A stretch of 64,000 nt of DNA from positions 187,413-251,412 of the forward strand of contig NZ_FQTT01000012.1 in the NCBI RefSeq assembly GCF_900098745.1. The letters run 5' to 3'. Below the pieces are notes generated by a model. It was not told where the DNA came from and searched no databases. It was given only the letters and a program-made list of their open reading frames with translations. This document shows, one piece after another, positions 1-11,522 of this stretch; position 1 is the stretch's first letter, and each line of letters opens with the position of its first letter. Both the position numbers and the translations under genes were made by a program. This DNA comes from Actinomyces glycerinitolerans (GTDB lineage: Bacteria; Actinomycetota; Actinomycetes; Actinomycetales; Actinomycetaceae).

Positions 1-600
1 GTGGGTGGTGGCGATGCCGGACTGGTCGCCCAGCTGCTCCTCGATCTTGAGGGAGTGGTGGTAGTGCTTCTCGGCCTGCTGGTAGTCGCCACGGGCCTGG
101 GCGAGCATGCCGAGCTGGTGGTGGGTGGTGGCGATGCCGGCCTGGTTGCCCAGCTGCTCGAAGACCACGAGGGAGTGGTGGTAGTGCTTCTCGGCCTGGT
201 GGTAGTCGCCACGGGCCTGGGCGAGCATGCCGAGCTGGTTGTGGGTGGTGGCGATGCCGGACTGGTCGCCCAGCTGCTCCTCGATCTTGAGGGAGTGGTG
301 GTAGTGCTTCTCGGCCTGCTGGTAGTCGCCACGGGCCTGGGCGAGCATGCCGAGCTGGTGGTGGGTGGTGGCGATGCCGGCCTGGTTGCCCAGCTGCTCG
401 AAGACCACGAGGGAGTGGTGGTAGTGCTTCTCGGCCTGCTGGTAGTCGCCACGGAGATAGCTGAGGCTGCCGAGCTGGTGGTGGGTGGTGGCGATGCCGG
501 ACTGGTCGCCCAGCTGCTCCTCGATCTTGAGGGAGTGGTGGTAGTGCTTCTCGGCCTGCTGGTAGTCGCCACGGGCCTGGGCGAGGATACCGAGATGGTG
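1..600 (-). repeat. 120-bp TPR-coding tandem repeats with 240-bp higher-order period
   Basis: Five consecutive 120-bp units each encode one 40-residue TPR. Two unit types alternate: one with the helix-B segment KIEEQLGDQSG (1-120, 241-360, 481-600) and one with VVFEQLGNQAG (121-240, 361-480). Bases 1-180 and 241-420 are identical, so the pair of units was duplicated recently. The array continues past the left edge. Confidence 0.95.
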
Positions 601-3600
601 TATCCAGGCGGCACGGCGGATGTCGGACAGGTTACTGCCGCTAAGCTGCTGATGTGCGAGAGAGAAATCCTCATCCCACCAACCGACGGTGTGAAGAATA
701 ACCGCAGCGTACCGTGCAACGTCATCGGCTGCCTCCGCGTCGCCAGAGCGGGAGTGATGGTGCCGCGCCTCGAGCAAGTCGTGCGCATCAATGGGACCAG
801 AACTCGCACCCTGCGGGCGCATCCGATAGCTCCAACGCCAATACTCGGCGGCGCGCCGATGCTGTTCGGCGGCAAGCTGCTCAACCTCGTCTTTCGGGCG
901 AGCGCTCGCCACAACGCGTTCCAGCGCCTCTGCCAGCCACCGGTGGACGAAGAACATGGTGTCCTCGCCATCGGCGGGCGGGATGACCGTGAGCAGCGTG
1001 GATCCAACTAGCTCATGGAGCAGATCGCTCAGCGGCAGATCCGTACTCGGCAGACCGAGCGAGGAATTATCATCGGCAGAGTTCTTGGCGGGTGGAACGT
1101 CGTCACCAACGGCGAAGAATACTGCGGCCGCATTGACCGGTTCCCGGAACACGGACATGCCCAGCAGGAGGCGCTGGGCGTCGCTGCTAAGAGTCGCCAG
1201 CAACTGCGGCAGGAGCACATCGTCGGCCGCGACCGTGACGGAGTCAGCAATGGCGGCATCAAGCGTGCGGCTGCGTGCCAGCCAGTTCTCTGGACGGACG
1301 CCTTCGGGAAGGCTGCTGCGCAGCCGCCCCCGCAGCTCCCGGGTGATTCGTGGTAGGCGCCCCCTTCCGCGGTTGAGCAGCGCATCTACCGTCTCCAGGG
1401 TTCTGGGATGCCCACCCACACCTGCCCACAGGGTCTGCAGATCGGCGGCCTCCAGGGCGTCCAGCTGCGGCAGGGACCAGGCCAGGTGAGTGGTCTCGGC
1501 AAAGCTCAAGGGCTCCAGGGCAATCCACTCCAGCGCCGCCGTAGCGTCCTCGGGCAGGCTGAAACGGTAACGGCAGGTCACCAGCAGCCTGCCACGGCCG
1601 GTAACAGTCAGATACTGCACTAAGAACTCGGCAAGCAGGGGATCGGTCAGGCGATAGGCGCCGTCGGTGAAGGTGAGATTGTCTTCGAAATTATCCAGCA
1701 CCAGGATGAGGGGAATCTGCTGCAGCAGGGTGCCTTGCAGCAGGTCCAGGCGCTCGGACCAAGCGATCTCGGTGTTGGCCAGCAGCCCCAGCAGCTGGTT
1801 CACCTGGGGGTCGGTGAGCTGATCACTGAAGCTGACGCGCAGGCGGGACACGATTCGCTGGAAGAGCTCCTCAACTCGTACTATGCCACGCATATCAACC
1901 ACAAGCACCGGCTGCAGCTCAGCGGTACGGCGAAGCACCTCAGCTGTCAGTGTTGACTTTCCGATGCCGCCAATCCCGTGAAACACCACGCCGGCATGGG
2001 TATCGGAGAGCAGAAATTGGGGCACGCGCAGCTGCTCCCGGCGCCGTCCGACGAACAATCCGGTGCCCAACGAGGGCAGCGAGTTCATTGCGCGCACGGA
2101 AGCCAACGGCGCCGACGCCTGCGCATCCTTCTCCGGTGGCGCAGCAATCTGCTGCCCGCAGCTGGAGGCCTGGACCGTTACTACGCTCCAGCCCGCCAGT
2201 ACCTGCTCGGTTTGTTGGCGTGGATTGGAGCTTTCAGCACATATCCGTCGGACCTCGCGGCGCGCCTGGGCCAGGGCGTAAACGGGATCCGGGTACGGTG
2301 CCGCAGCAAGCTCGGCGTATACCTTGGAGAACACCAGGGTGGCATAGTGGTCAGAGACCGCGTCCTCCGTGCCAATGACAATCGGCGCCCCCGCAGCCAC
2401 AAGCTCATCGGCGAAGGAAGCAGCCTCGGCACCAGCAGCCGCATTGGACTCACAGGCAGCCAGGCAAATCAGCGGCGGCATACCACCAGACGGAATTGCC
2501 TCCTCAATCAGCTCCTGCGCGCTGATACGCCGGGCGGCACCGTCCTTGTCCTCAAGCACGAGCAGGCCAGCGGCACCATGCCCTGAGATGTGCAGAACGT
2601 GCGGTTTCTCCTGTTCCAGAGCCCGCCGGATCTCCCTGGTGGTGGCGAACTGGACTATCCGGACCCGCGCATTGGCGCTACGCGCCTCGCGGACGGCGGT
2701 GGTGATAGCACGCAACTCCGCCTGGTAGTCCAATGCGCCGGCCCCGCCCTCAATCGGAGAGGCTATCGCCACCACGATCCGCAGTGGCCCGGGCACGCGC
2801 CGTGGTGCGGGGGAGGCCACCGCCTTGCGGAAGAAGGTAACCAGGTGATGCAGGGCCAATGGCTGCCCGGTTCCCGGCACATGCATGGCCTCCCAGGGTA
2901 GGTCACGCAGGTCATGACGCGCGGACACGTCAAGCGCCAGCTCCACGGGCACCGTCTGAGCCTCAGCCTTAGCAATGATTTGGGAGAGCGCTGCTCCGGC
3001 CTCGCCCGGCAGGAAGACTCGCGTGAGCACTGCGCCCATCTCATCCAGCGCATCCAACAGTGGGGTGCGGTCCCGATCCTGGGCTGGCGAGTGGTTCTTC
3101 AGTAGCGGGCGGCCCGCCCGAGCCAGCCGTAGGCACTGCGTAGGAGAGAACAGCTCGGCCTTAGAGCCGACCGTTACGCTCACTTCAACGTTCAGCGCAG
3201 GACAGGACACGGTCACCGAGTCACCCGGGCCCAGGCGCATCGTCACCTGCAAGGCCTCGGTGGGACGCGGCTCGCCCTCAAGCTCAACCTCCAGCCAGCC
3301 GCCGCATGACCTGACCAGCGACTCCACTCCGACGGCGAACACCAGGTCGCGGCTCCAGCCGTCGGCGGAGTTGTAGCGCCCCGTCACCATCCCGATGACG
3401 GCCCCGCCCTCGGCCAGCACAACCGGCGCTCCCGACATTCCCGGCTGTGCGCCGGAGGCATTCACAGTCAGTAGCTCAAAAGTACGGTCGTCGTAGTAAT
3501 CCCAGCCATCCCACCGTCCGCTGGTGCTGGATGCAGTGACGACGCGCTCGGCAGCGGTATCGGGGCGTCTGGAGACACCGGTAATGCGTACCGCAGCACC

Positions 3601-3966
3601 GGCTTGTTTCCCGGCAGTGGTTGCGAGCCGCGCCGGCTCAGACGACCAAGACGCGGCGTCCACCTCCAGCAGGGCCAGGTCCAGATCCAGGTCGAGGTGC
3701 AGGATGCGAGCGCCAAGCGGGGCCGCAGCAGAGCTCAACCCTGGCCGCAGCCGGATCCGCGGAGCGGGGGAGTTCCCCTCAGCGGCGGGTGCTGCGGCGT
3801 CGGGTCCCGCCAAGGCGGCGCGCGCCTGCACCAGGCTCACGCCGACGGCTTCCATAACATGCGCCGCAGTGACCACCTTCCCGGGACTCACCAGCCAGCA
3901 GGTGCCAACGGCCTGATCGGAATCGTCCAGAACCATCCCGAGGTAGCCGGGCACTCCGGAGGTCAC
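1..3966 (-). CDS. Trypsin-like / CHAT protease / NB-ARC NTPase / TPR protein, 3' end beyond window
   Basis: Open frame of 1,322 codons from GTG at 3966 to the left edge with no stop, so the C-terminus is missing. I translated it by hand. Residues 1-220 form a trypsin-like serine protease: TAAH (His36), DLALLEV (Asp96), GMSGAPV (Ser178). Residues about 285-600 form a CHAT caspase-like protease: HISGHG (His463) and LAACES (Cys505). Residues about 640-960 form an NB-ARC/STAND NTPase: P-loop GIGGIGKST (664-672) and Walker B ending LVLD (Asp758). From 1123 there are at least five 40-residue TPRs. The start overlaps the stop of the upstream Trypco1-like gene (GTGA), so the two are probably translationally coupled. 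Related architectures are known as NTP-dependent conflict systems; here activation by an invader signal is inference. A TTA leucine codon (782) and more A/T third positions than neighbours hint at transfer. Confidence 0.9.
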   Translation of the reverse strand, partial: MTSGVPGYLGMVLDDSDQAVGTCWLVSPGKVVTAAHVMEAVGVSLVQARAALAGPDAAAPAAEGNSPAPRIRLRPGLSSAAAPLGARILHLDLDLDLALLEVDAASWSSEPARLATTAGKQAGAAVRITGVSRRPDTAAERVVTASSTSGRWDGWDYYDDRTFELLTVNASGAQPGMSGAPVVLAEGGAVIGMVTGRYNSADGWSRDLVFAVGVESLVRSCGGWLEVELEGEPRPTEALQVTMRLGPGDSVTVSCPALNVEVSVTVGSKAELFSPTQCLRLARAGRPLLKNHSPAQDRDRTPLLDALDEMGAVLTRVFLPGEAGAALSQIIAKAEAQTVPVELALDVSARHDLRDLPWEAMHVPGTGQPLALHHLVTFFRKAVASPAPRRVPGPLRIVVAIASPIEGGAGALDYQAELRAITTAVREARSANARVRIVQFATTREIRRALEQEKPHVLHISGHGAAGLLVLEDKDGAARRISAQELIEEAIPSGGMPPLICLAACESNAAAGAEAASFADELVAAGAPIVIGTEDAVSDHYATLVFSKVYAELAAAPYPDPVYALAQARREVRRICAESSNPRQQTEQVLAGWSVVTVQASSCGQQIAAPPEKDAQASAPLASVRAMNSLPSLGTGLFVGRRREQLRVPQFLLSDTHAGVVFHGIGGIGKSTLTAEVLRRTAELQPVLVVDMRGIVRVEELFQRIVSRLRVSFSDQLTDPQVNQLLGLLANTEIAWSERLDLLQGTLLQQIPLILVLDNFEDNLTFTDGAYRLTDPLLAEFLVQYLTVTGRGRLLVTCRYRFSLPEDATAALEWIALEPLSFAETTHLAWSLPQLDALEAADLQTLWAGVGGHPRTLETVDALLNRGRGRLPRITRELRGRLRSSLPEGVRPENWLARSRTLDAAIADSVTVAADDVLLPQLLATLSSDAQRLLLGMSVFREPVNAAAVFFAVGDDVPPAKNSADDNSSLGLPSTDLPLSDLLHELVGSTLLTVIPPADGEDTMFFVHRWLAEALERVVASARPKDEVEQLAAEQHRRAAEYWRWSYRMRPQGASSGPIDAHDLLEARHHHSRSGDAEAADDVARYAAVILHTVGWWDEDFSLAHQQLSGSNLSDIRRAAWIHHLGILAQARGDYQQAEKHYHHSLKIEEQLGDQSGIATTHHQLGSLSYLRGDYQQAEKHYHHSLVVFEQLGNQAGIATTHHQLGMLAQARGDYQQAEKHYHHSLKIEEQLGDQSGIATTHNQLGMLAQARGDYHQAEKHYHHSLVVFEQLGNQAGIATTHHQLGMLAQARGDYQQAEKHYHHSLKIEEQLGDQSGIATTH

Positions 3967-4298
3967 GCCTCGCCCCGATCACCGGCGGCGGTAGTGAACT
4001 TCATGGACACCGCCAGCGAAGCCGTAGTGGTGGAGGAGGCGACGACGATCGCGCCAGTGGTGGACAGGCTCAGTCCCATCTGGATCGTGATCTCATCCGG
4101 AGGCTCCGCCTGGTCGCACACCCGACGGACCATGCCCGCGGCCTGTTTAGCCGCGGCATCAACCACATCCCCTGCCCGCTCGAACAGGTCCGCGGCCCGC
4201 TCCCGAACACCTGACAGCTCCTGGCTTCCGGGGGCTCGAACAACCTCAATCAGGACCTCTTGATCACCGATACGACCTTTGATCAGCTGCGTGTCCAT
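3963..4298 (-). CDS. Trypco1-like (trypsin-co-occurring) small protein
   Basis: 111 residues with no signal peptide or membrane segment. An N-terminal strand region (QEVLIEVV) is followed by a helical stretch rich in Ala and charged residues (about 30-65) and a C-terminal strand region with PPDEITIQMGLSLS then ASLAVSMKF. That pattern matches the Trypco1 (CU044_2847-like) family, whose members sit beside trypsin-like, CHAT and NTPase conflict proteins. The start ATG has TGGAG about 5 bases upstream. Its stop overlaps the GTG of the giant protease/NTPase gene, so it is the first gene of that unit. It probably acts as a partner, adaptor or regulator of the protease; the exact role is unknown. 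It lies 81 bases downstream of the ABC transporter operon on the same strand, so some read-through is possible. Confidence 0.75.
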   Translation of the reverse strand: MDTQLIKGRIGDQEVLIEVVRAPGSQELSGVRERAADLFERAGDVVDAAAKQAAGMVRRVCDQAEPPDEITIQMGLSLSTTGAIVVASSTTTASLAVSMKFTTAAGDRGEA

Positions 4299-4378
4299 GA
4301 GGCTCCAGGGAAGTAAGAGGAATGAGCGTGTCTTACATCACTTTAGTGGCCGTAGGAGCGGGGGTACACGCAACCTGA

Positions 4379-5197
4379 TCACAATACGGACGCGAGGAAG
4401 GCCTTGGTGCGCTCCTGACTGGGGTGGTCCAGTACCTCAACCGGGTCCCCGGACTCGCACACTACTCCGCCGTCCATGAACACCAGCTGATCGCCGACCT
4501 CCCGGGCGAAGCCCATCTCGTGGGTGACCACCACCATGGTCATGCCGTCGGCGGCCAGGTCCTTCATCACCTGGAGCACTTCTCCGACCAGCTCCGGGTC
4601 CAGGGCGGAGGTGGGCTCGTCGAAGAGCATCAGCTCCGGGTCCATGGCGAGCGCCCGGGCGATTGCCACGCGCTGCTGCTGCCCGCCGGACAACTGTGAG
4701 GGGTAGTGGTCAAGCCGGTCGCCCAGCCCCACCCGATCCAGTAGCTGGATGCCGCGTGCGCGGGCCTGGTCCTTGGGTACGTGACGCACGTGGACGGGCG
4801 CCTCAATGACATTCTCCAGCGCGGTCATATGCGGGAACAGGTTGAAGCGCTGGAAGACCATGCCGATCTTGGAGCGCTGGGCGGCGCGCTGCTTGTCCGT
4901 CAGGGCGTGCAGCCGTACGGAGCCGTCGGGGCGCTGCTCCTCCCGCATGCCGATCAGCTCGCCGTCGACCCACACGCGGCCGGCGTCGATGGTCTCCAGT
5001 TCGTTGATGCACCGCAGCAGCGTGGACTTCCCGGATCCGGACGGGCCCACCAGCACGGTCACGGAGCCGGGCTCGACCGTCAGGTCGATGCCCTTGAGTA
5101 CGTGCAGCTCCCCGAAGAACTTGTGCAGTCCGGCGATGCGGACCTTTGGCGTACCCGGCGGGACGGGCTGGGCGGTGGTCGAGTTCGTGCTGCTCAC
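4379..5197 (-). CDS. Polar amino acid ABC transporter ATP-binding protein
   Basis: 272-residue ATPase of the GlnQ/HisP type that powers amino acid uptake from the cytoplasmic face. Walker [10 protein letters not shown] is at 51-59, the Q-loop MVFQ at 113-116, signature LSGGQ at 169-173 and Walker B LMLFDEP at 189-195, with a later H-loop (VVTHEM). About 20 extra residues (84-104, REEQRPDGS...) sit between Walker A and the Q-loop. It is the third gene of a permease-coupled operon and overlaps the permease gene by 4 bases. The substrate cannot be read from the ATPase; the neighbouring glutamine synthetase suggests glutamine or glutamate (inference). Confidence 0.93.
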
Positions 5198-6207
5198 GGG
5201 GTGACCTCCAGGAAGGGGGAGTCCTTGGTGGTGTGGGAGTCGAGGATGGCCTGCTGACGGGCTGACAGGCCGCGGCCTGTGCGGTTCCCGGCGGTGGCGG
5301 CGGACCCGTCGAAGCCGCGGCCGTAGTAGCGCTCAATGAAGTGCTGGCCGACCATCAGGATGGACGTGATGATGATGTACCACAGGGCCGCCACGATAAG
5401 CAGCGGGATCGTCTGGTAGGTGTAGGAGGCGTAGGAGTTGGTGACGAAGGTCAGATCCAGCGTGAAGGGGACGGCCAGTACCAGCGAGGTGGTCTTGAGC
5501 ATGGAGATGGTCTCGTTGCCGGTGGGCGGCACGATCACGCGCATGGCCTGCGGCAGGACGATGCGGCGCAGGATCTGCCCCCGGCTCATGCCCAGTGCGC
5601 CGGCCGCCTCGGTCTGGCCGGGATCCACGCTGGCCAGGCCGGAGCGCACGATCTCCGACAGGTAGGCGCCCTCGTTGATGCCCAGCCCCAGCACGGCGGC
5701 GACGAACGGCGTGAACACCGCCGTGGTGCGGAAGGTGATCAGCTCCGGCCCGAAGGGAACCCCCAAGCTCAGGTACTGGTACAGGGCGGACAGCGCCCCC
5801 CAGAACACCAGCTGCGTGTAGATCGGGGTGCCGCGGAAGAACCACAGGTACGCCAGTGACACGCCGCGCAGCACCGGGTTCGACGACTGGCGCATGACCG
5901 CCGTCGTCACCGCCAGCACGATGCCGATCAGCATCGCCAGAAACGTCAGCAGCAGCGTCCAGCCGACCGCCCGCACCACGTGCACCTCACGGAAGAAGAA
6001 CCAGACCGTGCCCCAGTGGAACTTCTCATTGGTCACCAGGGCGTGGATGAGCATCGCACCGAGGATCGCGACGATGGTGGCGCTGATCCACGTGCCGGGC
6101 CGGGGAACCGGCTTCAGACGGTTCAGCTGGACCGATTGGTCGGCGCCGGAGGCGGCCGCAGCAGAAGCGGGTTGGGTGGGCTGGGGAGGTCTCATGGTGG
6201 TGATCAC
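5194..6207 (-). CDS. Amino acid ABC transporter permease (His/Glu/Gln/Arg/opine family)
   Basis: 337-residue inner-membrane permease. A roughly 40-residue Ala/Pro-rich cytoplasmic N-terminus precedes a first transmembrane helix ([19 protein letters not shown]) and the canonical five-helix permease core. The ATPase-contact EAA loop is visible as [20 protein letters not shown]. The C-terminus is a hydrophilic tail. It overlaps the binding-protein gene upstream and the ATPase gene downstream by 4 bases each, a tightly coupled three-gene importer. Only one permease gene is present, so the membrane unit is probably a homodimer. Confidence 0.93.
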
Positions 6208-7151
6208 TGCTCCACGTTCGGGTTCAGCTCGGCGGTGGTGAGCGCGGCATCCTCAATGCCCCAGGCGTCCAGGATCTCCTCCCAAGTGCCGGAGTCCATG
6301 AGGTACTGGACGGCCGCCTGGATGGCGGCGTTGAACTGCGGATCGTCCTTGGCCAGGACGATGGCCTGGGGGAGTGCGTCCTCGATCTCGCCGACGGTCT
6401 CCACCCCGCCGTCGGTCAGTTCGATGGCGTAGCCGGCCACGGTCGAATCGGAATAGACGGCGTCGATCACGTGCCCCATCAGACCGGTGGTCGCCTCCGA
6501 CTGGGTCGAGTAGGAACGCACGGCGATGGCCGGCAAGCCCGCCTCGGTGCAGGCGGCGGAATCGGCGTTCATGGCCTCCTCCTGGGCCGTCCCCGTCTGC
6601 ACCCCGATGGTCAGGCCGCACAGGTTCAGGTGGTCGGAGGGGTCCACGCCCTCCGGATTGCCGGCCACCACGTTGAAGCGGGAGCCGACGTTGATGTAGG
6701 CGATCATGTCCATGGCCGACTCGCGCTCGGCGGTCACGGTGAAGGAGGAGATGCCGGCGTCGTACTTGGAGCCGACGGCGGCGATGATGGAGTCGAACTC
6801 CGCCGTGTGGGTGGTCGAGTCGACGCCCAGCACGGCGGCGATGGCCTTGGCCAGATCGACGTCGTAGCCGATGGCGGTGCCGTCGGTGTCCAGGAACTCG
6901 GCGGGCGCATAGTCGGTGGAGGCGGCCACGTCGAGCACGCCGTCGGCCAGGGCGCCTTCGGGGAGCATGTCGATGATGTCCTGCTGAGCCTGGATGCCGG
7001 AGGTGTCATAGCCCGTGAAGGCGGCGGCGTCGCCGGTCTGGGTGGCCTTCCAATCGGCGGCGTCGGTACAGGCGGTCAGCGGCACCGTCGCCGTCAGCGC
7101 CAGGCACAGCCCGGCGGCGACGCGCGCGCTCAAGGTGCGTGCGGATCTCAT
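6204..7151 (-). CDS. Extracellular solute-binding lipoprotein of amino acid ABC transporter
   Basis: 315 residues. A lipoprotein signal peptide with hydrophobic core LCLALTATVPL ends in lipobox LTAC (Cys28), so the protein is predicted to be lipid-anchored outside the membrane. The rest matches solute-binding family 3 (DYAPAEFLDTDGTAIGYDVDLAKAI in two parts, then GVQTGTAQE). It captures a polar amino acid and delivers it to the permease. GAAGGAG lies just before the ATG. It is the first gene of the importer operon and lies downstream of glnA on the same strand, separated by about 100 bases that contain a plausible promoter. Confidence 0.92.
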   Translation of the reverse strand: MRSARTLSARVAAGLCLALTATVPLTACTDAADWKATQTGDAAAFTGYDTSGIQAQQDIIDMLPEGALADGVLDVAASTDYAPAEFLDTDGTAIGYDVDLAKAIAAVLGVDSTTHTAEFDSIIAAVGSKYDAGISSFTVTAERESAMDMIAYINVGSRFNVVAGNPEGVDPSDHLNLCGLTIGVQTGTAQEEAMNADSAACTEAGLPAIAVRSYSTQSEATTGLMGHVIDAVYSDSTVAGYAIELTDGGVETVGEIEDALPQAIVLAKDDPQFNAAIQAAVQYLMDSGTWEEILDAWGIEDAALTTAELNPNVEQ

Positions 7152-7188
7152 GCGGCTCCTTCGAATCGAGGACTACGGCCACCGCCAG

Positions 7189-7217
7189 GATATCCACATC
7201 AGAGCATAGATATGCAA
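7189..7217 (-). promoter_or_regulatory. Candidate promoter of the amino acid importer operon
   Basis: On the minus strand TTGCAT (7212-7217) is followed after 17 bases by GATATC (7189-7194), a fair sigma-70-type pair 37 bases before the start codon. The surrounding bases are unusually AT-rich for this window. Based on spacing only. Confidence 0.4.
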
Positions 7218-7248
7218 ATGGTTGGGGCGGGCCGGCACGAGAGGCCGC

Positions 7249-8673
7249 TCACAGGTCGTAGTACAGCTCGAACTCGTAGGGGTGGGGGCGCTGGCGCATC
7301 GGGGCGATCTCGTTGGTGCGCTTGTAGTCCACCCAGGTCTCGATCAGGTCGGGGGTGAAGACGTCGCCCTCGCCCAGGTAGTCGTGGTCGGCCTCCAGCG
7401 CGTCAAGCGCCTCGTCCAGCGTGCCCGGCAGCTTGTCGATGTCGTGGTAGTCCTCGGGGGCCAGCTCGTACAGGTCCTTGTCCACGGGCTCGCGCGGCTC
7501 GATGCGGTTGCGGATGCCATCGATGCCGGCCATGAGCGTGGCGGCGAAGGCCAGGTAGGGGTTCGCCGACGGGTCGGGCACGCGGTACTCGATCCGCTTG
7601 GCCTTGGGGGAGGAGCCGGTCACCGGGATGCGGATGCAGGCGGAGCGGTTGCGCGCCGAGTACACCAGGTTCACCGGCGCCTCGAAGCCCGGCACCAGCC
7701 GGTGGAAGGAGTTGACCGACGGGTTGGTGAAGGCCAGCAGGCTGGGGGCGTGACGCAGGATGCCGCCGATGTACCAGCGGGCCAGGTCGGAGAGCTGCCC
7801 GTAGCCGCGCTCGTCGAAGAACAGCGGCTTGCCGTCCTTCCACAGGGAGTGGTGCGTGTGCATGCCCGAACCGTTGTCGCCGAAGATCGGCTTGGGCATG
7901 AAGGTGGCGGTCTTGCCGTTGCGCCAGGCCTCGTTCTTGACGATGTACTTGAACTTCATCATGTCGTCGCCGGCGGCGAGTAGGGAGGCGAAGCGGTAGT
8001 TGATCTCCTGCTGCCCGGCGGTGCCGACCTCGTGGTGGGCGCGTTCGATGTCGAGGCCGGACTGAATGCAGGTGCGCACGATGCGATCGCGAATGTCGGC
8101 CATCTGGTCGTTGGGGGACACGGGGAAGTAGCCGCCCTTGAAGGCGGTCTTGTAGCCCTTGTTGCCGCCGGGCTCGTCACGGCCGGTGTTCCAGGCCGCC
8201 TCGGCGGAGTCGATCAGGTAGCGGGTGGAGGCGGGCGTGGTCTCGTACTGAATGGAGTCGAACAGGTAGAACTCGGCCTCCGCGCCGATGTAGCAGGTGT
8301 CGGCGATGCCCGTGGAACGCAGGTAGTCCTCCGCCTTGGCGGCGATCGAACGGGGATCGCGGGCGTAGACCTCGTCGGTGAAGGGATCCACGATCGAGAA
8401 GTTGATTACCAGTGTGCGCTGCTCACGGAAGGGGTCCAGGAAGGCGGTGGTGACGTCCGGGATGAGCTTCATGTCCGACTCGTGGATGGCGGTGAAGCCG
8501 CGGATGGAGGAACCGTCGAACATGAGCCCCTCGGTGAGCGCCTCATCCTTGAAGGCGGCAACCGGAATGGTGAAGTGCTGCATCACGCCGGGCAGGTCGC
8601 AGAAGCGCACATCAACCAGCTGCACATCCTCCTTCTCGATGTAGGCCAGCGCTTCCGCAGCGTCACTGAACAT
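7249..8673 (-). CDS. glnA: Glutamine synthetase type I
   Basis: 474 residues, the usual length of GSI. It makes glutamine from glutamate, ammonia and ATP in the cytoplasm as a dodecamer. The N-terminal beta-grasp domain contains [15 protein letters not shown], and the catalytic domain has the ATP-site region NDNGSGMH and [18 protein letters not shown] near the C-terminus carries Tyr402, matching the tyrosine that is adenylylated in regulated GSI-beta enzymes, so control by a GlnE-type adenylyltransferase is likely (family knowledge). A strong GGAGG lies 6 bases before the ATG. It is upstream of the amino acid importer on the same strand, grouping nitrogen assimilation genes. Confidence 0.97.
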
Positions 8674-8852
8674 GTGGTCCCTCCGTCAGGGTGTGCGTGT
8701 TGTTTGCCCGAAAGATCCCGGGCGTGGGTATGCAGGCTAGGTGGGCGCGGTGTCGTGGCGGTGCCGCGAATATGTCCGCCGTGTTTCGGCTGCATGGCCG
8801 AGCCGGTCCGCAGACTTGCAGAGCGCCAGCCTCGGGCCGGGGCGGCGGCGGT

Positions 8853-9575
8853 TCAGTGGCCGCGGATGGCGCGGCGGTCCGGACGAATGTTGTTCGGGTC
8901 CATGTACTTCGGGATGGGCAGGCCCTTGGAGGACAGGGACGACAGCCGCTTGGCGACCCGGTCGATCTCGGTGTTGGTCAGCTTGGTGGGCTTAGTGGGC
9001 AGGCGCCGCAACTCGCGCTCGAGGTGGATCAGGCGTGTCTGTCCCTCCGCGGTGCCCACGCTGATCACGTGCACCGGAACCGTGGACAGGATGCGCCGCA
9101 GCACCTTCTTCTCATCCTCAACCAGGCGCTGGGTACGACCCGGCGCACCCTCGGCCACCAGCACGATGCCCGGGCGTCCCACCAGGCGCCATACGAAGTC
9201 CTGGCCCTTGGGGCTGAAGGCGACCGGATCCGACTCCACGTACCAGCCGCGGCCCGCCTGATCGAGCACGGCCTTGACCGCACCGGGGTGGCCTTCGATC
9301 TGCATGTATGAGGCACGGCGGGTGGCCAGTGAGAGAACCACCATGTCCGCCATGAGCGCCAGCAGCACGCCCATCAGCAGCCAGTACCACAGCGCCTGGC
9401 TGGTGACGGCGGACAGCGCAACGGCCAGTGCCACCAGGGCCACCAGGATGCCGAGCAGGGCCCAGCCGATCCACGGATAGCTGCGCCGTGAGATCGTGTA
9501 GGAGTCTTTGACGTTCTGGGCGACCTGTGCGAGGCGCCGCTTCTTCTTCGGCTGGGCGCTCTGGGCTGTGCTCAC
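8853..9575 (-). CDS. DUF4191 family membrane protein
   Basis: 240 residues. A basic N-terminus (KKKRRLAQ) is followed by two transmembrane helices (about 36-60 and 63-83, GWALLGILVALVALAVAL and WYWLLMGVLLALMADMVVL), then a soluble domain with GRGWYVESDPVAFSPKGQ and VGRPGIVLVAEG. This is the DUF4191 pattern found next to lipA in many actinobacteria. Function is unknown. It lies 36 bases downstream of lipA on the same strand and is probably cotranscribed with it, then 179 bases separate it from glnA. Confidence 0.85.
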   Translation of the reverse strand: MSTAQSAQPKKKRRLAQVAQNVKDSYTISRRSYPWIGWALLGILVALVALAVALSAVTSQALWYWLLMGVLLALMADMVVLSLATRRASYMQIEGHPGAVKAVLDQAGRGWYVESDPVAFSPKGQDFVWRLVGRPGIVLVAEGAPGRTQRLVEDEKKVLRRILSTVPVHVISVGTAEGQTRLIHLERELRRLPTKPTKLTNTEIDRVAKRLSSLSSKGLPIPKYMDPNNIRPDRRAIRGH

Positions 9576-9611
9576 GATCCCACCTTAGCCGACGACGGCG
9601 CACGCCGTCCC

Positions 9612-10682
9612 TCAGGAGGCGGCCCGGCCCACCGGGCTCGGCGTCGCCCGGTCGGCCGCGGAGCCTGCGGCGGTCCCGGCGGCGAGCAGGGCGGCGGCCT
9701 CCTGGCGGGCCGTACTCGGCTCGGCTAGGTCGCGCATGTTGGCGGGAATCTCCCGGCCCGTGGCACGCATCGCCCGCGCCCACAGCATCCCCGAGCGGTA
9801 GGAGGAGCGCACCATGGGTCCGCTCATGACCGCATCGATGCCCCGGTCCTCCGCGAGCGCCGCCAGCTCGAGGAACTCCTGCGGCTTGACCCACCGGTCG
9901 ACCGGATGGTGCAGCTTGGACGGGCGCAGGTACTGGGTCAGGGTCAGGATGTTGACACCGACCGAGACGAGGTCCGCGATTGCCTGCTCGATCTCCTCGC
10001 GGGTCTCGCCCATCCCCAGGATCAGATTCGATTTGGTCAGCAGTCCGGCCTGCGACGCGCGCGCGAGGACGTCCAGGCTGCCGGCGTAGGAGAAGGCGGG
10101 GCGGATCTGCTTGAAGATGCGCGGCACGGTCTCCAGGTTGTGGGCGAACACCTCCGGGCGGGAGGAGAAGACCTCCTGCAGCGACTCCTCCCGGCCCCTG
10201 AAATCGGGCACCAGCAGCTCAATGCCGCAGCCGGGCACTTGTTCGTGCACCTGGCGGGCGGTCTCCGCGTACAGCCAAGCGCCGCCGTCGGGCAGGTCGT
10301 CGCGGCTCACCCCGGTGACGGTGGCGTAGCGCAGGCGCATCTCCCTGATCGAAGCGGCCACCCGGGCCGGCTCGTCCGGATCGTACTCGGTGGGACGGCC
10401 GGTGGCGATGTCGCAGAAGTCGCAGCGGCGGGTGCAAATGCTTCCGCCCACGAGGAAGGACGCCTCGCGGTCGTTCCAGCACTCGTAGACGTTGGGGCAG
10501 TTGGCTTCGGCACAGACCGTGTGCAGGCCGTGGCTGCGCACCAGGCCGCGCACATCCTGGTAGGTGTCGGTCACCACGGCGCGGGTGCGCAGCCAGCCGG
10601 GCTTGCGTTCGATCGGCGTCTGGGCGTTGCGGGCCTCCACACGCAGCAGGCGGCGGCCCTCAGGGGCGACGGCGTCGGGCAC
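9612..10682 (-). CDS. lipA: Lipoyl synthase
   Basis: 356-residue radical SAM enzyme that inserts two sulfur atoms into protein-bound octanoyl groups to form lipoyl cofactor. Both iron-sulfur cluster motifs are visible: auxiliary cluster cysteines 57, 62 and 68 ([12 protein letters not shown]) and the radical SAM cluster CTRRCDFC (83, 87, 90). The C-terminus has an Ala/Ser-rich extension of about 35 residues. It is divergent from lipB, with 144 bases between them. Its products are needed by the E2 subunit encoded near 15.2-16.5 kb. Confidence 0.97.
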
Positions 10683-10814
10683 TGGAACTCCTCCCGTAGG
10701 ACCATTGGCGTAGGACCATCGGCCCGTAGTCTATGCGGTCCGCCCCGGTCGTCACTCATCCGCCACCCCGCGTCGCTACCGGCACGAGCAACGCACCCCC
10801 GCACGGGTCTCATC

Positions 10815-10820
10815 TAGGCT
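10815..10820 (+). promoter_or_regulatory. Probable -10 element for leaderless lipB
   Basis: TAGGCT sits 6 bases before the GTG at 10827, the spacing expected when transcription starts at the first base of the start codon. No clear -35 is seen. It supports the GTG start, which has no Shine-Dalgarno sequence. Confidence 0.4.
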
Positions 10821-10826
10821 GGTGAG

Positions 10827-11522
10827 GTGCATGGATTGGAACGCGTCGACGTCGGTTTGGGGACCCGCCTGGTGCCCTTTGACGAGGGCTTGGCGCTTCA
10901 GCGCGCCGTGCACGCCGACGTCGCCGCAGGCCGCCGTCCCGCGACGGTGCTGCTGCTCGAGCACGAGAGCGTCTACACGGTGGGGCGGCGCACGCACTCA
11001 TGGGAGCGTCCGGCCGGCCCGCTGGCTGGGCCCGAGCGCGTGCCGGTGGTGGACGTAGACCGCGGCGGAAAGGTGACTTGGCACGGTCCCGGGCAATTGA
11101 CCGTCTACCCGATCATTCGCCTGGCCGAGCCGATCGACGTGATCAAGTATGTGCGCGCCCTGGAGGCGGCGGTGATGGACGTATGCGCCGACCTCGGCGT
11201 GACTACTATGCGTGTGCCGGAGCGCTCGGGGGTGTGGGTGCCGCCGGGCCGACAACCGGGCCGCGGCGAGGCGCGCGAGTGCAAGGTCTGCGCCCTGGGG
11301 GTGCGGGTGGCGCGCGGCACCACCATGCACGGTATCGGCCTGAACGTGGACCCCGACCTGGCCGCATTCGACCTGGACCGGATCATCCCCTGCGGCATTA
11401 CCGACGCCGGGGTCACCTCGTTGACAGCCGTGACCGGCATCCACTACGCGACGGCCGAACTGGCCGATCCGGTGATGGCGGCGCTGGAGACCCACTTGAC
11501 TCCACTCATGACCGACGCCTAG
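10827..11522 (+). CDS. lipB: Octanoyl-[acyl carrier protein]:protein octanoyltransferase
   Basis: 231 residues. It transfers octanoate from acyl carrier protein to lipoyl domains, the first step of lipoate assembly. Family motifs: RGGKVTWHGPGQLTVYP (79-95), the catalytic lysine in ECKVCALGVR (Lys153) and the catalytic cysteine in IIPCGITD (Cys189). Residue 155 in that lysine motif is Cys, where many homologues have Ala. The chosen GTG start has a -10-like TAGGCT 6 bases upstream and looks leaderless. It is divergent from lipA. Confidence 0.95.
   Translation: MHGLERVDVGLGTRLVPFDEGLALQRAVHADVAAGRRPATVLLLEHESVYTVGRRTHSWERPAGPLAGPERVPVVDVDRGGKVTWHGPGQLTVYPIIRLAEPIDVIKYVRALEAAVMDVCADLGVTTMRVPERSGVWVPPGRQPGRGEARECKVCALGVRVARGTTMHGIGLNVDPDLAAFDLDRIIPCGITDAGVTSLTAVTGIHYATAELADPVMAALETHLTPLMTDA

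Follow-up and report, generated by a model that had tools for sequence, protein, structure and literature searches.

Trypco1 was named in 2020 for the company it keeps, and the account of Kaur et al. (2020; PMC7159879) presents it as the trypsin partner in ternary VMAP-MoxR-vWA systems, the Trypco families being mutually exclusive. Trypco1 and Trypco2 were also called adapter domains (PMC10907252), and the accessible text of these two papers gives no tested function of Trypco1. Fusions of a trypsin domain to a STAND sensor were described in Avs proteins, in which the protease cuts an upstream-encoded partner after phage sensing; a gated nuclease is encoded upstream of trypsin-fused Avs and Hachiman genes in that account (PMC12799240). 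Among CHAT (caspase-like) proteases, a fungal one bearing tetratricopeptide repeats (TPR) was reported to activate a gasdermin (PMC12881547). A pair of adjacent genes, encoding Trypco1 and a receptor protein in which trypsin, CHAT, STAND and TPR modules follow one another, lies at the left end of a 64,000-nucleotide stretch of Actinomyces glycerinitolerans DNA (G000:C6:187413-251412, hereafter the window) and is compared here with these systems. This combination of trypsin, CHAT, STAND and TPR modules was not found described in the open-licence literature, subscription journals and supplements lying outside that search.

The two-gene pair was confirmed with all of these domains (Table 1); it is intact as far as an assembly gap allows, and conserved. 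The receptor displayed an NLR-like layout, with an N-terminal effector, a central nucleoside triphosphatase (NTPase) and C-terminal superstructure-forming repeats. By analogy, and on a narrow balance, the pair is probably an NLR-like intracellular non-self receptor that would kill or arrest its own cell by proteolysis. An earlier note on this DNA, drawn from the sequence alone, had placed two proteases with intact catalytic residues and an NTPase with P-loop and Walker B motifs in one chain, coupled by a GTGA overlap to a Trypco1-like partner. Pfam searches supported the Trypsin_2, CHAT, TPR_12 (E-value (E) 9.5e-45 in the receptor) and Trypco1 calls, and the overlap was found as described. The window's own Trypco1 gene was the single match to this family in the genome. 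The receptor gene is cut off at the window edge because the window starts at an assembly gap: ten N immediately left of position 1 (L004:15404-15413) interrupt the TPR array, and the sequence recovered beyond them encodes more TPR units in another register, followed by the C-terminus ...IQGGSNPE. This gap, as well as the exchanges of N-terminal domain, the varied array and the single insertion site presented below, was missed in the earlier note because it lay outside the view given by the window. A promoter and terminator scan yielded no signal above chance.

Table 1. Coordinates of the Trypco1-receptor pair and of its border in the window (residue numbers refer to the receptor protein of the A. 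glycerinitolerans copy, G000)
Feature	Position	Strand	Basis
Trypsin-CHAT-STAND-TPR receptor gene (first 1322 codons, no stop, open at window edge)	1..3966	(-)	
Trypco1 gene (111 aa, first of the pair)	3963..4298	(-)	PF19493, E 5.7e-13, 49.7 bits against a cut-off of 24.6; also NF041216, E 2.6e-11
GTGA stop-start overlap of the Trypco1 and receptor genes (4 bases)	3963..3966	(-)	Sequence
Trypsin domain, residues 21-193, triad H36 D96 S178, HtrA/Deg-like fold	3388..3906	(-)	Pfam Trypsin_2 (E 1.1e-14), model
CHAT (caspase-like) domain, residues 327-578, dyad H463 C505	2233..2988	(-)	Pfam CHAT (PF12770, E 1.6e-21, 77.4 bits against a cut-off of 24), structure model
STAND NTPase, residues about 638-860, P-loop GIGGIGK at K670, Walker B D758	1387..2055	(-)	Weak Pfam, motifs, Foldseek
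TPR array, residues 1127-1322, 40-residue units (120 bp), continues beyond the gap	1..588	(-)	
Left boundary of the insertion, between the Trypco1 and ABC-transporter ATPase genes	4299..4378	.	Comparison with the empty sites of G005 and G012
ABC-transporter ATPase gene	4379-5197	(-)	

A structure model of receptor residues 1-1200 (mean predicted local distance difference test score (pLDDT) 79.6, predicted template modelling score (pTM) 0.64) had its best PDB match in 6mfv, a STAND protein with TPRs (Foldseek, E 1.4e-14), and the plant NLR NRC2 and CED-4 were among the lower-ranked matches. In VIA-align comparisons the N-terminal domain resembled HtrA/Deg proteases (AlgW, Z 22.2, root-mean-square deviation (rmsd) 2.6, 180 residues aligned; MucD, Z 22.0; HtrA1, Z 21.8). 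Residues 237-604 resembled the TPR-CHAT protein of Craspase (Z 24.3, rmsd 3.5, 294 residues aligned), and the CHAT model matched separase (Z 22.5) and SAVED-CHAT (Z 20.9); by sequence the CHAT domain matched 8tl0, a SAVED-CHAT by its title (E 1.7e-9). The five catalytic residues stood where the earlier note had placed them and were invariant in all six Actinomyces orthologues, that of the window included. Over 18 trypsin-bearing proteins (6 from Actinomyces and 12 others), the trypsin triad as well as the Walker A and B motifs were conserved throughout (18/18) and the CHAT dyad almost so (17/18). The call of an NTPase is therefore supported by its motifs and by the 6mfv match, not by Pfam, and motifs and predicted fold together make a STAND NTPase clear despite Pfam scores below the cut-offs.

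The pair shares with the VMAP ternary systems a Trypco1 gene adjoining a trypsin-like domain that forms part of a larger sensor or switch protein, and the mutual exclusion of Trypco families has a parallel in a relative (L067) that carries Trypco2 instead of the Trypco1 of the window and most relatives. In contrast to those systems, the partner is a CHAT-STAND-TPR protein and not VMAP. VMAP-C (PF20028) had no match in the A. glycerinitolerans genome, in a search that lacked a working positive control. No MoxR gene was seen beside the pair, whose neighbours are by eye an ABC transporter and a histidine phosphatase; the five MoxR-type (PF07726) matches of the genome, four of them above the cut-off, were all on other contigs. 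Reading the nearest genes by eye revealed no vWA gene, a vWA profile search not having been made. Assignment to a VMAP ternary system was not adopted, owing to the lack of a MoxR gene beside the pair. The earlier note had counted Trypco, CHAT and NB-ARC combinations among reported NTP-dependent conflict systems. The part of that claim concerning a STAND-type system with peptidases holds, whereas PMC7159879 puts Trypco1 in VMAP-MoxR-vWA systems and its main text contains neither 'CHAT' nor 'NB-ARC'.

Avs (AVAST) proteins, as described in PMC12799240, are alike in having an N-terminal protease on a STAND sensor, an upstream partner gene and exchangeable modules. They differ in that the partner is an MBL-fold nuclease instead of Trypco1; in the present receptor, moreover, CHAT is interposed between effector and NTPase, and the sensor is an array of near-identical TPR units. 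No Avs model was among the PADLOC matches of the window protein or of four relatives, a search run with no positive control. Craspase TPR-CHAT (Csx29) and SAVED-CHAT have in common with the receptor the CHAT fold and the His-Cys dyad, but the pair has neither a SAVED domain nor Cas7-11, and its CHAT is fused to trypsin and STAND modules.

The N-terminal domain of the receptor is one of several that occupy the same slot. A scan of genome contigs with the first 622 residues alone gave no match, and a scan with a six-species alignment gave 24 loci, one of which (L042, A. dentalis, NZ_AUBL01000024.1) was the G021 copy again. By the profiles built here, 12 of these loci encoded trypsin, CHAT and STAND, eight CHAT and STAND without trypsin, and four STAND only. 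As classified with Pfam, the slot held trypsin in the window, L043, L047, L053 and L067, TIR in nine loci (L057, L058, L060, L061, L068, L069, L072, L073 and L074), SIR2 in L040, and no N-terminal domain in L052, L054, L055 and L056. The trypsin of L043 was not listed when a longer stretch was scanned, and matched Trypsin_2 above the cut-off (E 4.7e-7) when the domain was submitted alone. In L067 the trypsin-CHAT-STAND receptor gene (763-5217) directly follows a Trypco2 gene (PF19631, E 7e-24) at 436-759. A 33-row tree, built on the CHAT-STAND part and without L071 because its CHAT is broken, was rooted at midpoint and so gives no direction of change. All 18 sampled trypsin forms, every one from Actinomycetota, fell on one side of one branch (support 100/100), and five slot labels (trypsin, TIR, SIR2, none, and unknown for the single row L070) required 4 changes on it versus a mean of 13.6 after shuffling.

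CHAT-STAND-TPR is thus a common chassis with an exchangeable N-terminal slot, in which trypsin takes an effector position. The trypsin domain is read as a putative effector because the same slot is filled in relatives by TIR and SIR2, which act as NAD-consuming effectors elsewhere among bacterial immune proteins. In another actinobacterium of the order, a CHAT frame directly preceding a frame that is caspase-like (Peptidase C14-type) by eye was observed in L041 (3698-8795).

The constancy of CHAT next to an exchanged N-terminal domain speaks for an obligatory cascade, in which the STAND oligomer would activate CHAT, CHAT would cut the region of residues 236-300, and the freed trypsin would execute. 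A CHAT protease activates a second protease in type III-B CRISPR systems (SAVED-CHAT). In the model, a low-confidence stretch (residues 287-300) separates the two protease domains, and of 17 additional chassis proteins in the alignment, mostly without trypsin, 16 retained the CHAT dyad (L067 is in both sets; L071 has no CHAT segment). However, in L051 (Nocardia tenerifensis, receptor gene 5824-10404) His and Cys of the dyad are replaced by Tyr and Arg with the trypsin triad kept, although its sister L046 retains the dyad. CHAT chemistry thus belongs to the chassis, although a receptor may lose it and keep trypsin. Moreover, in L117 and L122 the Trypco1-linked trypsin is directly followed by an NTPase-like domain (below the Pfam cut-off in L117, nSTAND1 above it in L122), with no CHAT in the stretch scanned. 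Of the cascade put forward in the earlier note, the possibility survives but not the necessity, and an obligatory version is rather unlikely.

The C-terminal array varied in length between species. Its units are exactly 40 residues long, and regular units numbered eight in G000 (plus two cut by the gap), 10 in G029, 13 in G014, six in G031, one in G064 and two, up to the contig end, in G021; the array breaks off inside in G000 and G021, so these two counts are lower bounds. Short-read assemblies can collapse repeats, as discussed in PMC12222747, and this may affect the unit counts of the other genomes. For the comparisons that follow, eight of the 10 units of G000 were taken (the two cut by the gap were omitted), one full unit of the two in G021, and the complete arrays (G014, G029, G031 and G064) without their degenerate last unit. 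Mean DNA identity among units was 0.915 in G000, 0.861 in G029, 0.869 in G014 and 0.850 in G031, and mean pairwise amino-acid identity 0.852 (8 units), 0.763, 0.766 and 0.747, respectively. Repeats of high internal conservation (HIC), as defined in PMC4986451, are more than 85% identical to one another across 100 aa or more, a level of identity that G000 barely exceeds and below which the other three arrays fall.

Units were turned over between species. Those of G000 were 0.680 identical to the units of G014 and 0.595 to those of G031, and 0.876 and 0.884 to those of its close relatives G029 and G064, so that homogenisation within arrays is evident, on these identities, only against the distant species. 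Stretches of at least 85% self-identity at shifts of 90-147 nt were found in 13 of 27 chassis genes, trypsin, TIR and SIR2 forms included, a count that may be too low as at least six of the 27 run off the locus end. Near-identical repeats are a feature of the chassis and not of the trypsin form alone. Near-identical WD40 repeats in bacterial proteins were already reported (Hu 2017, cited in PMC12222747), and on near-identical or diversifying repeats in bacterial NLR/STAND proteins the open-licence literature yielded fungal papers only.

Variation inside the units was concentrated at few positions. On average over four arrays the five most variable columns were 1, 4, 34, 5 and 37, corresponding to canonical TPR positions 9, 12, 2, 13 and 5. 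According to PMC1261162, the positions that vary in TPRs generally, and that lie on the concave face, are 2, 5, 9, 12, 13, 33 and 34. The concentration at the five positions was supported by permutation (p 1e-5 for the average of the four arrays; 0.006 in G000, 0.0005 in G029, 0.0005 in G014 and 0.00005 in G031), these p-values being post hoc as the set was fixed after the variable columns had been seen; with positions 33 and 34 added, p was 9.5e-4 or 2e-5 depending on the alignment of a longer loop. In the model, the variable columns map to the first helix of every repeat (helices 1115-1131 and 1155-1171). The pattern is that of a ligand-binding surface, and its occurrence among such similar copies within one gene is what stands out. 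Nonsynonymous to synonymous differences among units were 24:2 in G000, 35:8 in G029, 37:5 in G014 and 29:14 in G031, versus 155:211 in the body of the receptor gene between G000 and G029 (Fisher tests of units against body: 4e-7, 1e-6, 1e-8 and 0.002, respectively), a contrast that sets paralogous units against orthologous bodies and so mixes two processes.

These arrays recall the fungal HIC-repeat NLRs (het-d/het-e, TPR/ANK) as presented in PMC4986451 and PMC12222747, which likewise join STAND to near-identical C-terminal repeats with variation in repeat number and hypervariable positions inside conserved units. The Actinomyces receptors differ in being bacterial, in the 40-residue TPR unit and in their protease effectors; their signal of positive selection is also weaker, and the comparison was made between species and not between strains. 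That the fungal het-type NLRs have a bacterial counterpart is a tentative and somewhat doubtful extension: a single chromosomal receptor would be respecified in Actinomyces by gain, loss and shuffling of near-identical TPR units, which differ mainly on the ligand-binding face, and an exchangeable protease effector with its Trypco partner would read out recognition.

Trypco1 was closely associated with trypsin-bearing receptors. It was present in 11 of 12 trypsin-CHAT-STAND loci versus one of eight CHAT-STAND loci without trypsin (L056); nine of the 11 had it directly upstream, and L046 and L051 had it 2.2-2.5 kb downstream. All six Actinomyces carriers had Trypco1 directly upstream of the trypsin-domain gene, and an ATGA or GTGA stop-start overlap was found in the window and in seven of nine fetched loci with Trypco1 directly upstream (one being L042, from Actinomyces). 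Among 396 genomes sampled across the phylum, Trypco1 was matched in 17, and trypsin adjoined Trypco1 in 21 of 27 loci, the window's included (18 by the profile built here, among which L126 was marginal with E 0.001, and L114, L117 and L122 by Pfam). Trypco1 lay directly upstream of a CHAT gene without trypsin match in L104 and L106, from two actinobacterial families, and no protease was recognised within about 1.5 kb of it in L113, L116, L119 and L124, where only some of the neighbouring frames were scanned with Pfam. The rule that Trypco1 occurs only with trypsin was rejected because of these six loci and L056. In the latter (Amycolatopsis acidicola, 5878-10915), the CHAT-STAND gene is followed by a gene for a small hydrophobic protein (by eye) and then by the Trypco1 gene.

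Since Trypco1 is tightly co-produced with trypsin receptors, yet not bound to trypsin alone, its distribution favours a regulatory or adaptor role over one of trypsin inhibition only. An inhibitor or chaperone, antitoxin-like, would keep the trypsin silent until triggered, and would be well served by being translated first, by the stop-start overlaps and by the skew of Trypco1 towards trypsin-bearing loci. Against it, the triad of L043 is intact although a Trypco1 gene was not found in the 15 kb of this locus (another copy from that genome, L045, does have Trypco1), and the downstream genes of L046 and L051, as well as the trypsin-free settings of L104 and L106, do not fit either, making such a role rather improbable. 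Alternatively, Trypco1 would be a substrate or pro-effector, cut by trypsin into a fragment that does the damage. Gene order is the one reported in PMC12799240, with the partner upstream of a protease-fused sensor, trypsin adjoins Trypco1 in most loci, and no third gene was recognised in the five carriers with both flanks seen. The loci with CHAT in place of trypsin, or with no recognised protease nearby, speak against this role, as do an unplaced fold and few invariant residues (L16, E18, G24, P67 and G75), so that it is quite unlikely. The AlphaFold2 model of Trypco1 (beta-beta-alpha-beta-beta) had low confidence, with a mean pLDDT of 67.8; the best PDB match of this weak model was at E 1.2, and the 13 PDB matches of a sequence profile (best E 0.17) were taken as chance. 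Whether trypsin cleaves Trypco1 would be the key question of the mechanism.

The pair was distributed patchily in the genus and always at one site. Trypco1 was found in six of 49 Actinomyces genomes (G000, G014, G021, G029, G031 and G064), with the receptor gene directly behind each. The pair sits between convergent genes for an ABC-transporter ATPase and a histidine phosphatase. Among 37 genomes tabulated, that of the window counted and G064 set apart, 29 had the flanking genes 23-223 bp apart and no pair, four had 5.1-6.3 kb between them with the pair inside (distances being taken between matched stretches), two (G030 and G036) had about 1 kb of other DNA, and two had the flanks on different contigs (G021, with the pair, and G002). 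In G064 both flanks matched and the pair was at the same site. The pair filled nearly all of this 5.1-6.3 kb interval in the five carriers with both sides seen; in G014 a further 0.65 kb or so (L017:15054-15725) lies between the receptor and phosphatase genes, and a 165-aa frame within it had no Pfam match. The locus was homologous to the empty G005 and G012 sites up to the ATPase stop codon or a position just before it, and the ATPase gene of the window matched at 92% in G005 and G012 and at 91% in G029, of which only G029 has the pair.

The other inserts are G030:C1:2326140-2327234 (1.1 kb, with a frame that is methyltransferase-like by eye) and G036:C39:39295-40099 (0.8 kb), and the intergenic site therefore takes up different inserts. 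Because the receptors of G000 and G014 are 47% identical versus 86% and 77% for the neighbouring genes, the pair either diverges rapidly or entered this one site in separate acquisitions, as far as these identities indicate. In G031 the histidine-phosphatase gene (G031:C1:2486662-2487390) was in two pieces, one with an internal stop, and looks broken. The wider neighbourhood is one of nitrogen assimilation by eye, with an amino-acid ABC transporter and glutamine synthetase on the window side (4379-8673), and a glnE-like gene and another glutamine synthetase on the other side (L004 8764-14405).

Such surroundings could suit a STAND regulator of normal physiology, AfsR-like or developmental, with proteases that would act on a cellular regulator instead of in defence. 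The C-terminal part of the receptor (residues 1039-1315) matched the AfsR model NF053617 (E 9.3e-10), and the pair was on chromosome-sized contigs in four carriers and not found on plasmids or phages. On the other hand, no DNA-binding domain was among the 25 Pfam families listed, most species of the genus lack the pair at the same site, TIR and SIR2 occupy the same slot, and the repeats vary at ligand positions. A physiological regulator is thus distinctly improbable.

The mechanism proposed for an intracellular receptor acting by proteolysis owes all of its dynamics to analogy with STAND receptors. The concave face of the C-terminal TPR array would bind a protein of a phage, a mobile element or a rival strain, and the ligand would free the STAND NTPase for nucleotide exchange and oligomerisation. 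In the oligomer the two proteases, CHAT and the HtrA-like trypsin, would be brought together and activated; CHAT would work either in parallel with trypsin or as its processing enzyme. Trypsin would then cut proteins of the cell, possibly Trypco1 first, leading to death or arrest. Trypco1, co-translated with the receptor, would be a regulatory or adaptor subunit at the protease end.

Several observations weigh against this reading. NB-ARC and AAA_16 stayed below their Pfam cut-offs (E 6.5e-4, 19.5 bits against 23.5, and 20 bits against 32.6, respectively), ATPase_2 was also weak, and the PADLOC matches of the receptor span single domains only. The Nocardia receptor has lost its CHAT dyad, and the array of G064, on one contig, is left with a single regular unit, a very short sensor. 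Positive selection on the repeats is suggested in two arrays, with a nonsynonymous excess over neutrality in G014 (p 0.021) and G000 (p 0.051) that is nominal for four uncorrected tests; no such excess was obtained in G029 (p 0.38) or G031 (p 0.87). Searched against 72,556 plasmid and 50,697 phage records, the first 622 residues matched none, and no other defence gene was recognised among the neighbours by eye, no full survey having been made, so that guilt by association with mobile DNA does not add to the case.

One clonable two-gene unit here combines proteases of two unrelated kinds with an NLR switch and with a repeat sensor whose binding faces vary. The pair provides Trypco1 with a clean genetic setting, given the stop-start overlap and the empty sites of sister species, and natural variants are at hand in the form of a dead CHAT, of a locus in which no Trypco1 was found, and of one with Trypco2 instead. 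The TPR arrays make it possible to test, outside eukaryotes, whether an NLR-like sensor diversifies through its repeats. If a counterpart of the fungal het-type receptors were indeed present in Actinomyces, its targets would be polymorphic, for example phage proteins or proteins of rival strains in a biofilm.

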